Below, piece after piece: positions 29,775 through 32,833 of a stretch of 64,000 nucleotides of DNA. Made by a program: the position numbers and the translations under genes. Source of the DNA: Thioalkalivibrio thiocyanodenitrificans ARhD 1 (GTDB lineage: Bacteria > Pseudomonadota > Gammaproteobacteria > Ectothiorhodospirales > Ectothiorhodospiraceae). The DNA is taken from contig NZ_KB900536.1 of assembly GCF_000378965.1 (NCBI RefSeq), forward strand, positions 3,225,407 through 3,289,406. The letters run 5' to 3'. The stretch's first letter is position 1. Each line of letters opens with the position of its first letter. The notes below the pieces were generated by a model. It was not told the origin of the DNA. It was given only the letters and a program-made list of their open reading frames with translations, and made no database searches.

Positions 29775-31370
29775 ATGTCAGAACGGCTTCGGAGAAAGAC
29801 GTGGTCGCCGCGGTTTCTTTTCGTGGGCCTGCCACTTGCGTGCCTTGCCCCGGCGCTCGCGACCACCGTTGATCACAGCAAGCTCGAGGAACTGCAAGGG
29901 CCCTTCCAGACGGGCGAGGACGTCACCAGGGCCTGCCTGGGTTGCCACACCGAGGCCGCCAGACAGGTCATGGCCACGCCCCACTGGACCTGGGACTACG
30001 AGGACCCGCTCACCGGCCAGCGGCTGGGCAAGAAGACCATGATCAACGCATTCTGCATTGGCCTTCAGTCCAACGAGGCGTTCTGCACCTCATGCCATGC
30101 GGGCTTCGGGTGGGAGGACGAGACCTTCGACTTCAGCGACGAGAGCAGGGTCGACTGCCTGGCGTGTCACAACACCGGCGGTTACAGCAAGATATCGGGC
30201 CTGGCGGGGCACCCGCCCTACGAGCGCATGGAGTGGCCGGCGGGTTCGGGTCAGTACCTGGAGCCGGTCGACCTGGTGTCCGTCGCGCAAGGCGTGGATA
30301 TCCCCTCACGCGCGACCTGCGGCAGCTGTCACTTCTACGGTGGCGGCGGTGACGGGGTGAAACACGGCGATCTGGACTCGTCGCTTGTGGATCCGCCGGA
30401 GTCACTGGATGTGCACATGGCCTCCGATGGCCTGAACTTCGCCTGTGTCGAATGCCACCTCACCGAGAACCATGTGGTGCCGGGCAGCCGCCTCGACATG
30501 ACGGCGGCCGATCCGCGCGGGCCGATCATGCGCGGCCGGGACGAGGATCGAAACCCGGCGACCTGCCAGGCCTGTCACGGGGATCGCCCTCATGTGCAGG
30601 GGCCGATGCATGCCGGGCGCCTGAACGACCACGCCCGGACGCTGGCCTGTCAGAGTTGCCATATCCCCAGCTACGCCCGCGGCGGAGTTGCGACCAAGAT
30701 GCGCTGGGACTGGTCCACCGCCGGCCGGCTCGACGAGGATGGCAAGCCATTCCTGATCCGTGATGAGCAGGGGAGGGTCATCTACGACAGCCGAAAGGGC
30801 GATTACACACTTGGCGAGGATGTCGTCCCGGCATACGTGTGGTTTGACGGGCGGGTGCACTATCTTCAGCCGGATGCGGTCATCGACCCCGACAAGCCCG
30901 TCAGGATCAACGAGTACCTGGGCCGGCCCGGAGCGGAGAACGCGCGGATCTGGCCGGTCAAGCCCTACCGGGGCAGGCAGCCCTACGACACCGTGTACAA
31001 CACCCTGCTGGTACCCAACGTCGCGGTGCACGCGGAGACTGCCTTGTGGCTGAACTTCGACTGGCCCGTGGCCCTTCGGGCGGGCATGGAAGCGTCCGGG
31101 CGGCCATACAGTGGCGAGTTCGATTTCGTCGATACCCTGATGCTCTGGCCGATCACCCACATGGTGGCGCCGGCGGAACAGGCGCTGCAATGCGGCGATT
31201 GCCACACCGTCGGCGGACGGCTGGAGGACGTGCCCGGCATCTGGATGCCGGGCCGTGACCGCAATCGCTGGCTCGACTTTTTCGGTTTCGGCCTTGCGGG
31301 TTTGATGCTGCTGGGTGTCGTCGTGCACGGCAGCCTGCGGGTGCTGACGCGCGGCAGACGCAAGGGGTAG
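29775..31370 (+). CDS. Octaheme c-type cytochrome, tetrathionate-reductase (OTR) family, membrane anchored
   Basis: A 531-residue exported multiheme protein. A signal sequence ends near ALA-TTVDH (about residue 29). There are eight CXXCH heme motifs: CLGCH 54, CTSCH 104, CLACH 128, CGSCH 182, CVECH 224, CQACH 264, CQSCH 292 and CGDCH 473. A C-terminal helix (about 500-520) with a basic end anchors it to the inner membrane. Spacing and content fit the OTR family; the Shewanella member reduces tetrathionate, nitrite and hydroxylamine in vitro. Lys196, in VKHGDLD after heme 4, is a candidate Lys ligand to the active heme; this is unverified. The physiological substrate is unknown. The start MSERLRRKTW fits the signal peptide. 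Three bases separate it from the cytochrome b gene. Confidence 0.88.
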   Translation: MSERLRRKTWSPRFLFVGLPLACLAPALATTVDHSKLEELQGPFQTGEDVTRACLGCHTEAARQVMATPHWTWDYEDPLTGQRLGKKTMINAFCIGLQSNEAFCTSCHAGFGWEDETFDFSDESRVDCLACHNTGGYSKISGLAGHPPYERMEWPAGSGQYLEPVDLVSVAQGVDIPSRATCGSCHFYGGGGDGVKHGDLDSSLVDPPESLDVHMASDGLNFACVECHLTENHVVPGSRLDMTAADPRGPIMRGRDEDRNPATCQACHGDRPHVQGPMHAGRLNDHARTLACQSCHIPSYARGGVATKMRWDWSTAGRLDEDGKPFLIRDEQGRVIYDSRKGDYTLGEDVVPAYVWFDGRVHYLQPDAVIDPDKPVRINEYLGRPGAENARIWPVKPYRGRQPYDTVYNTLLVPNVAVHAETALWLNFDWPVALRAGMEASGRPYSGEFDFVDTLMLWPITHMVAPAEQALQCGDCHTVGGRLEDVPGIWMPGRDRNRWLDFFGFGLAGLMLLGVVVHGSLRVLTRGRRKG

Positions 31371-31373
31371 GCC

Positions 31374-32000
31374 ATGAGCAGAGACATCTACCTGTTCACG
31401 CGTTTCGAACGATTCTGGCACTGGACGCAGGCTGCGCTGATCTTCGTGCTGCTGTTCTCCGGTTTTGCGATTCACGGCAGCCATGGGTTCATCGATTTCC
31501 GTACCGCGGTGGCGGTGCACGAGATCGCCGCCTACCTGCTGATCACCCTGTGGGTGTTTGCCATTTTCTGGCACTTCACCACCGGGGCATGGAGGCAGTA
31601 CATCCCCACTGTGCGCAACATCGATCGCATGATCCGCTACTACGTGTACGGCATCTTCGTGGGCGAGGAGCACCCCTACCGCATCACGGTGGAGCGCAAG
31701 CACAATCCCCTCCAGCGGCTCGCGTACCTGGGTGTCAAGCTGCTGATCAACCCGCTCATCTGGATCTCCGGGCTGATCTACCTGTTCTGGGGTCGGTTGC
31801 AGGGGTACCTGCCGGAGGCCATCGGTCTGCAGCAGGTGTCCCTCGCACACACGCTTGGCGCCTTCCTGATGCTGGCTTTCGTGATCATCCACGTCTACCT
31901 CACCACTACCGGGCACACGCCGTTCGAGAAAATCCGCGTGATGATCACGGGCTGGGAGACCCATCACGATGATGACGTGAAGATCGACAGAAGGGGCTGA
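31374..32000 (+). CDS. Di-heme cytochrome b, quinone-linked partner of the octaheme cytochrome
   Basis: A 208-residue inner-membrane protein of the hydrogenase/formate-dehydrogenase/thiosulfate-reductase cytochrome b type. Four hydrophobic segments carry the likely heme-ligating His residues: ERFWHWTQA, VAVHEIAAYLL with FAIFWHFTTG, and SLAHTLGAF with VIIHVYLTT. It should exchange electrons between quinol in the membrane and the octaheme protein outside. It starts three bases after the octaheme gene stop, so the pair is one transcription unit. Confidence 0.87.
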   Translation: MSRDIYLFTRFERFWHWTQAALIFVLLFSGFAIHGSHGFIDFRTAVAVHEIAAYLLITLWVFAIFWHFTTGAWRQYIPTVRNIDRMIRYYVYGIFVGEEHPYRITVERKHNPLQRLAYLGVKLLINPLIWISGLIYLFWGRLQGYLPEAIGLQQVSLAHTLGAFLMLAFVIIHVYLTTTGHTPFEKIRVMITGWETHHDDDVKIDRRG

Positions 32001-32008
32001 GGCCGGAA

Positions 32009-32032
32009 GGACGCAAATGGGCGTCCCTTTCT
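32009..32032 (+). terminator. Possible rho-independent terminator after the cytochrome pair
   Basis: Stem GGACGC (32009-32014) with GCGTCC (32021-32026), six-base loop, followed by CTTTCT. The stem is short but well placed, eight bases after the cytochrome b stop. Confidence 0.5.
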
Positions 32033-32233: not shown

Positions 32234-32833
32234 ATGAGATCCACATCATTTAAAAGAAAGTACATAGCCATGGCGGCAGGGGTTCTGCTCGCATCCTCTG
32301 CTCCGATAGCGCTGGCTGCTATCCAGCAGCATACATTCTCCATCTCAGGTGACAACGGTGAGACGGGGACCGGGATGTTTACCTGGGATGATCAGGTCGT
32401 GGCAGATGGGCAGCCGCTATCGCAGGATACGCAGAGCACCGGGGACCTCCTCAGCGTTTCCATCACCATATCGGGGGGCAATGTCGTGGGCGGGAGTACA
32501 ACCTTCTCACTGGCCGACTGCGGTGGTGCCTACCTTGAGTTTACGCCTGATTTCATGTCGGATATAAATTTCTGGTGTAACAACGGAACCAACTCTCTGT
32601 CTGGTATCGAGGTGTACACCAATATCCTCAACGATACCGTTGATCAGGGCGCGGGTGATCAGATGCCGCAGATTGGCGACAATAGCAGTACGTTGACATT
32701 CACGCCGGTCAGCACCAGTCAATTGATCCAGGACGCCCGGCCGATCCCGATCATGGGTTTGTACGGCTTGCTGGGCATGAGCGGCTTGCTTGGACTCCTC
32801 GGCGCCTGGCGGCTATATGGGCGCAAGCGGTAA
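32234..32833 (+). CDS. Exported protein with CTERM-like sorting tail
   Basis: A 199-residue protein of unknown function. The N terminus is a Sec signal (KRKYIAMAAGVLLASSAPIALA). The middle is Ser/Thr/Gly/Asp-rich and beta-like, with two Cys that could pair (ADCGGAY, NFWCNNG). The last 30 residues run PIPIMGLYGLLGMSGLLGLL-GAWRLYGRKR: a Pro-Ile-Pro start, one hydrophobic helix and a basic end, resembling IPTL/PEP-CTERM exosortase-type signals. No sortase gene lies in the window. The start region is visibly more AT-rich than neighbouring genes, which suggests recent acquisition. It is monocistronic. Confidence 0.7.
   Translation: MRSTSFKRKYIAMAAGVLLASSAPIALAAIQQHTFSISGDNGETGTGMFTWDDQVVADGQPLSQDTQSTGDLLSVSITISGGNVVGGSTTFSLADCGGAYLEFTPDFMSDINFWCNNGTNSLSGIEVYTNILNDTVDQGAGDQMPQIGDNSSTLTFTPVSTSQLIQDARPIPIMGLYGLLGMSGLLGLLGAWRLYGRKR

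Follow-up and report, generated by a model that had tools for sequence, protein, structure and literature searches.

Octaheme c-type cytochromes of the OTR family have been described as respiratory enzymes from the soluble Shewanella protein, which has left their electron supply elsewhere a puzzle. The active-site heme of OTR takes a lysine from outside its own CXXCH motif (PMC12285233); in Shewanella OTR the catalytic heme is heme II, and the protein is fed by periplasmic carriers and interacts with STC (PMC4484225). For Thermosulfurimonas dismutans, a membrane link of OTR via a nearby cytochrome b (TDIS_1882/TDIS_1883) was presumed in the 2016 genome paper (PMC4911364). In vitro reduction of both nitrite and tetrathionate, the latter at up to 93 umol/min/mg, was reported in 2019 for the octaheme protein BOGUAY_2386 of the orange Beggiatoaceae (PMC6449678). 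Caldithrix also possesses an otr gene, but its growth tests gave no support for the predicted respiration of sulfur compounds (PMC5317091).

The window analyzed here (a stretch of 64,000 nucleotides from Thioalkalivibrio thiocyanodenitrificans ARhD 1) encodes an octaheme cytochrome of this family and, immediately downstream, a cytochrome b (Table 1). The octaheme gene runs from an ATG at 29775 to a TAG at 31368-31370, and the cytochrome b gene from an ATG at 31374 to a TGA ending at 32000; the spacer between them is GCC, exactly the 3 bp given in an earlier note on this DNA, and its length suggests that the two genes are co-transcribed. The upstream neighbor, more than 400 bp away, is rlmB (rRNA methyltransferase). 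The same note stated that no accessory or regulatory gene follows, which agrees with the terminator-like hairpin beyond the cytochrome b gene (identified in a consensus scan that found 4 sites versus 1.8 expected) and with the next gene (32234-32833, + strand), which encodes a secreted protein of 199 aa that belongs to no known family and is unrelated to the pair; its hydrophobic C-terminal stretch and basic end resemble an exosortase sorting signal. Among 150 neighbor genes of octaheme loci, called via a codon-position score in GC-rich DNA, cytochrome bd, the bc1 Rieske protein and rhodanese were each found six to seven times. Because recurrent operon partners are only loose, the octaheme and cytochrome b genes appear to form a self-contained unit of two genes. 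The source genome (3.75 Mb) has a single OTR copy, and the closest named relatives are in Thioalkalivibrio, the octaheme protein of Thioalkalivibrio denitrificans being approximately 89% identical.

Table 1. Coordinates of the octaheme-cytochrome b locus within the window
Feature	Position	Strand	Basis
Octaheme c-type cytochrome, OTR family (TIGR04315), 531 aa	29775..31370	+	TIGR04315, PF11783 and 1SP3 matches
Probable Sec signal peptide MSERLRRKTWSPRFLFVGLPLACLAPALA	29775..29861	+	Sequence reading: basic n-region, hydrophobic core, AxA before mature start
Heme site 1, CLGCH, residue 54	29934..29948	+	Invariant, 105 sequences
Heme site 2, CTSCH, residue 104	30084..30098	+	Invariant, 105 sequences; heme 2 catalytic in Shewanella OTR
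Heme site 3, CLACH, residue 128	30156..30170	+	Invariant, 105 sequences
Heme site 4, CGSCH, residue 182	30318..30332	+	Invariant, 105 sequences
Lys196, putative active-site heme ligand	30360..30362	+	Aligned with 1SP3 residue 153; invariant, 105/105
Heme site 5, CVECH, residue 224	30444..30458	+	Invariant, 105 sequences
Heme site 6, CQACH, residue 264	30564..30578	+	Invariant, 105 sequences
Heme site 7, CQSCH, residue 292	30648..30662	+	Invariant, 105 sequences
Heme site 8, CGDCH, residue 473	31191..31205	+	Invariant, 105 sequences
C-terminal membrane anchor helix, residues 499-524 (about)	31269..31346	+	Kyte-Doolittle 19-residue mean 1.98
His518, within anchor helix	31326..31328	+	101/105 in alignment
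Cytochrome b (PF01292, FdnI/HyaC/PhsC type), 208 aa, four TM helices	31374..32000	+	PF01292; AF2; FdnI fold
His16, TM1, putative heme b ligand	31419..31421	+	Invariant, 104/104; aligned with HyaC His
His49, TM2, putative heme b ligand	31518..31520	+	Invariant, 104/104
KHNPLQ motif, residues 109-114, candidate quinone-site loop	31698..31715	+	K109, P112 and Q114 invariant
His159, TM4, putative heme b ligand	31848..31850	+	Invariant, 104/104
His173, TM4, putative heme b ligand	31890..31892	+	Invariant, 104/104
Terminator-like hairpin GGACGC-loop-GCGTCC, then CTTTCTT	32009-32026	+	Consensus scan; 9 nt past cytochrome b stop

The octaheme protein scores 579 bits against the NCBIfam model TIGR04315 (cut-off 375; E = 7e-174; model positions 1-436 of 440), matches PF11783 (E 6e-63), and aligns with the Shewanella OTR structure 1SP3 (E = 7e-113) across nearly the whole soluble domain; the first and last of these values place its family membership beyond chance. 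No Pfam or NCBIfam model of the NrfA, HAO or ONR families was matched above its cut-off, and a match to NrfH was weak and below cut-off. All eight CXXCH sites reported earlier are present. Lys196, singled out in the earlier note for comparison with OTR structures, proved to be the right residue: its counterpart in 1SP3 is the residue that we take to be the lysine ligand of the OTR catalytic heme. Eight histidines outside the CXXCH motifs (34, 70, 197, 214, 233, 273, 286 and 462) are conserved in the 105-sequence alignment, enough for seven distal ligands. With Lys196 kept, the hemes would not all be bis-histidine and an open site would be left, and an OTR-type active site is the favored assignment for this protein.

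By the absence of a membrane helix that marks a soluble OTR, the octaheme protein of the window is not one. The C-terminal anchor that the earlier note described is supported both by hydropathy and by the AF2 model of a natural fusion protein (L108, discussed below), in which the homologous segment is a confident helix (487-514). Within this segment a histidine equivalent to His518 is found at every one of the 143 anchored loci surveyed. Shewanella-type OTR, in contrast, is missing the anchor segment altogether and its histidine with it, so that the distinction drawn in that note between the two forms holds.

The cytochrome b matches PF01292 at 84 bits (cut-off 30.1; E = 1e-23) but stays below the NCBIfam equivalog cut-offs for PhsC, hydrogenase cytochrome b or the formate dehydrogenase gamma subunit; its score against PhsC (PRK15006) is 129.7 bits, under the cut-off of 204. 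Its AF2 model (pLDDT 91) finds its best solved fold match in FdnI (1kqf_C, TM 0.69), followed by HyaC, and the original description of it as PhsC/FdnI-like is therefore right in kind. A profile search aligns its KHNPLQ motif with HNPIAQ of HyaC, and the equivalent region of FdnI lies near the quinone site. The protein is probably a diheme cytochrome b of the quinone type and a dedicated partner of the octaheme protein, as had been proposed. The source genome encodes two other PF01292 proteins. In the same genome, the gene for an FDH-N alpha subunit (G000:C1:1076137-1077780) contains a single in-frame TGA that probably encodes selenocysteine.

Octaheme loci were collected from one genome-contig scan, from genomes sampled within the class (369) and the phylum (398), and from the family of the window; 151 distinct loci had enough downstream sequence to be counted. 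Anchored octahemes have such a cytochrome b directly downstream or fused in 142 of 143 cases, whereas seven of the eight unanchored octahemes have none (Fisher p = 2e-10 for the link between anchor and cytochrome b, a value that overstates independence because the loci are mutually related, although the contrast is plain). The distance from the octaheme stop codon to the cytochrome b match, measured with a trimmed profile, is 20 nt or less in 107/137 cases. Evolutionary distances of the two proteins correlate across 96 loci (r = 0.85, a value reached by no permutation), as expected if octaheme and cytochrome b have been inherited together. The pair occurs at more than 100 other loci, in Pseudomonadota and Bacteroidota, and so is far from peculiar to this genome; confinement to this genome was the outcome that the earlier note had named as fatal to its reading. 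The sole anchored OTR homolog with no adjoining cytochrome b is L193 (G453), in a genome that has other copies. L006 was considered as an unanchored pair and rejected, its tail resembling a frameshifted anchor.

The unanchored octahemes mostly cluster together in the tree. They include two proteins approximately 80% identical to 1SP3 (L180 and L181) and the related L182. The neighbors of these three genes encode a small monoheme cytochrome c and an outer-membrane-like protein of the DUF3373 type or similar (the DUF3373 match was tested on L180 only). Soluble OTR is the exception within the sampled loci, and the survey suggests that the quinone-linked anchored pair, not the textbook soluble protein, is the usual form of OTR in the genomes sampled.

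Octaheme, membrane anchor and cytochrome b are joined in a single reading frame at L107, L108, L109 and L173 (745-788 aa), and such fusions are extended by a receiver domain at L171, L172/L188 and L174. The first four group together in the tree and L171/L188 form a separate clade, so that OTR and cytochrome b were fused on two or more occasions. The AF2 model of the L108 protein (pLDDT 87, pTM 0.80) brings together the octaheme domain (TM 0.86 by target versus 1SP3), the anchor helix and a four-helix cytochrome b, its membrane part matching FdnI. Separately encoded cytochromes b likewise end in a receiver domain (PF00072) at L152/L190, L155 and L157/L189; these receiver-bearing forms, fused or not, come from genomes of other classes. 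At L189 a gene for a DctP/periplasmic-binding protein follows, and the triple-fusion gene of L188 is followed by genes for an NMT1-type binding protein and a hybrid histidine kinase. Two Bacteroidota cytochromes b (L110:7629-8963 and L111:7526-8860) have two C-terminal PAS domains each (Pfam was run on L110), and just upstream of the octaheme gene both loci encode a protein of two rhodanese-like halves; rhodanese genes near some relatives count in favor of the reductase reading given below. The receiver and PAS domains suggest recruitment of the complex into signaling in the lineages that have them, a use of OTR-cytochrome b of which no description was found in the limited, open-licence literature searched. 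At L176:1145-3397 (- strand) and L175:3741-7415 (+ strand), a heptaheme cytochrome is fused to a similar anchor, with its histidine, and to a cytochrome b; at both loci OTR itself is soluble and is adjoined by this protein.

The pair of the window probably forms one inner-membrane complex that, fed by quinol, reduces tetrathionate and/or nitrite and hydroxylamine in the periplasm. The octaheme subunit would face the periplasm with an OTR-type active site made of heme 2 and Lys196, and its C-terminal helix would pack on the four-helix diheme cytochrome b, tethering the octaheme to the membrane. Quinol would be oxidized by the cytochrome b, and the electrons would cross the two b hemes and pass the helix with His518, which may have a role in this transfer, into the chain of c hemes, at whose end tetrathionate and/or nitrite or hydroxylamine would be reduced. 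Several points count against such a reading. In FdnI-type cytochromes b the quinone site is on the cytoplasmic side, which energetically favors quinone reduction and disfavors quinol-driven reduction; a quinol oxidase with a site on that side spends proton-motive force, which is awkward for ubiquinol and tetrathionate. In the genome of a sulfur oxidizer with cytochrome cd1 proteins, neither tetrathionate nor nitrite reduction is an obvious need. The anchored L193 with no cytochrome b and the Caldithrix growth tests (PMC5317091) weigh on the same side. Reduction in vitro was viologen-driven and is therefore a poor guide to the in vivo direction.

The same complex might run in reverse, the octaheme oxidizing a reduced sulfur or nitrogen compound in the periplasm and the cytochrome b reducing quinone at the cytoplasmic face, with energy conserved as in FdnI and HyaC. 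This is unlikely, although both nearest folds, FdnI and HyaC, are quinone-reducing and the organism is akin to sulfur-oxidizing Thioalkalivibrio. Its genome encodes SoxB, SoxX and four SoxA (near G000:C1 1951620, 1797445, 3203627 and 3205364, one of them a SoxX-SoxA fusion), and no TsdA was recognized there, the candidates having been rejected because all four proteins with a SoxA-TsdA domain fall under SoxA. Thiosulfate oxidation with quinone as acceptor would be uphill, the tetrathionate/thiosulfate couple lying above ubiquinone, and the characterized members of the OTR family reduce tetrathionate, nitrite and hydroxylamine (PMC4484225, PMC6449678).

Somewhat less probable still is that the octaheme serves mainly as a conduit from quinol to periplasmic or extracellular acceptors, or detoxifies nitrite or hydroxylamine, instead of being a respiratory reductase of a single substrate. 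A conduit is how PMC11024163 describes MmcA, a multiheme protein treated alongside OTR, the interaction of Shewanella OTR with the periplasmic carrier STC (PMC4484225) points the same way, and few substrate-specific neighbors recur around the octaheme genes; yet an active-site lysine kept in all aligned sequences is needless for a plain conduit. Because a search of the source genome for NrfA found none, the octaheme may conceivably act on nitrite or hydroxylamine; among the families searched, it is the sole candidate there for ammonium-forming nitrite reduction. The genome does encode cytochrome cd1-domain proteins and two NapC/NirT proteins; at G000:C1:3400717-3402569 (- strand) a NapC/NirT gene adjoins one for a cytochrome cd1-domain protein in the same orientation.

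That the complex of the window senses redox state or a substrate on behalf of a signaling pathway is very improbable: the receiver and double-PAS domains on the cytochromes b of its relatives and the hybrid histidine kinase gene at L188 would fit such a function, but the cytochrome b of the window stops at 208 aa with no signaling domain, and no kinase gene follows it. Least credible of all is a chance proximity of the two genes, with the cytochrome b serving another enzyme, since the near-complete association of anchor and cytochrome b and the repeated fusions contradict it, even though the further PF01292 proteins of the genome show that such genes are not rare.

The survey bears on OTR at large, for it suggests that most of the sampled members draw electrons from a quinone-linked cytochrome b of their own. 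A wider proposal can be offered tentatively, with the balance somewhat against it: that OTR in nature, in Pseudomonadota at any rate, exists predominantly as a quinone-linked complex; that the invariant histidine of the anchor lies in the interface with cytochrome b, as a heme ligand or in the electron path; and that the module of anchor and cytochrome b has also been plugged into other multiheme cytochromes (the heptaheme of L175 and L176) and, with receiver or PAS domains, has given rise to transmembrane redox-sensing proteins. The cultured hosts of the pair include Thauera, Stutzerimonas, Halomonas and Thioalkalivibrio, and the result has a bearing on the annotation of sulfur and nitrogen cycling in metagenomes.

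The cytochrome b resembles FdnI, HyaC/HydC and PhsC in its predicted four-helix diheme fold, conserved histidines and HNPxxQ loop, but the partners of those proteins are Fe-S or hydrogenase small subunits, whereas here the partner is an octaheme c-type cytochrome. The octaheme protein shares with Shewanella oneidensis OTR (1SP3) the octaheme fold, the eight CXXCH sites and the active-site lysine; unlike that soluble protein, it has a C-terminal helix and an adjoining cytochrome b. BOGUAY_2386, another octaheme of OTR type, likewise has a cytochrome b gene of the thiosulfate reductase type downstream, but it was assayed as the octaheme alone, and genes of a thiosulfate/polysulfide reductase also follow there that are missing at the window. 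At TDIS_1882/TDIS_1883 a cytochrome b gene again lies close to that of an OTR-type octaheme, on genome annotation only, and the passages of PMC4911364 concerned with them do not discuss the anchor helix, its conserved histidine or the generality of the arrangement. What the survey adds is that generality, together with the invariant histidine, the independent fusions and the signaling variants. The features that the earlier note read from this locus stand, but the novelty it implied is weaker, the anchored pair being usual in the sampled genomes and already in print (PMC4911364, PMC6449678). Thus, the pair of the window belongs to an already known arrangement, since a membrane link between OTR and cytochrome b was proposed in 2016 (PMC4911364).
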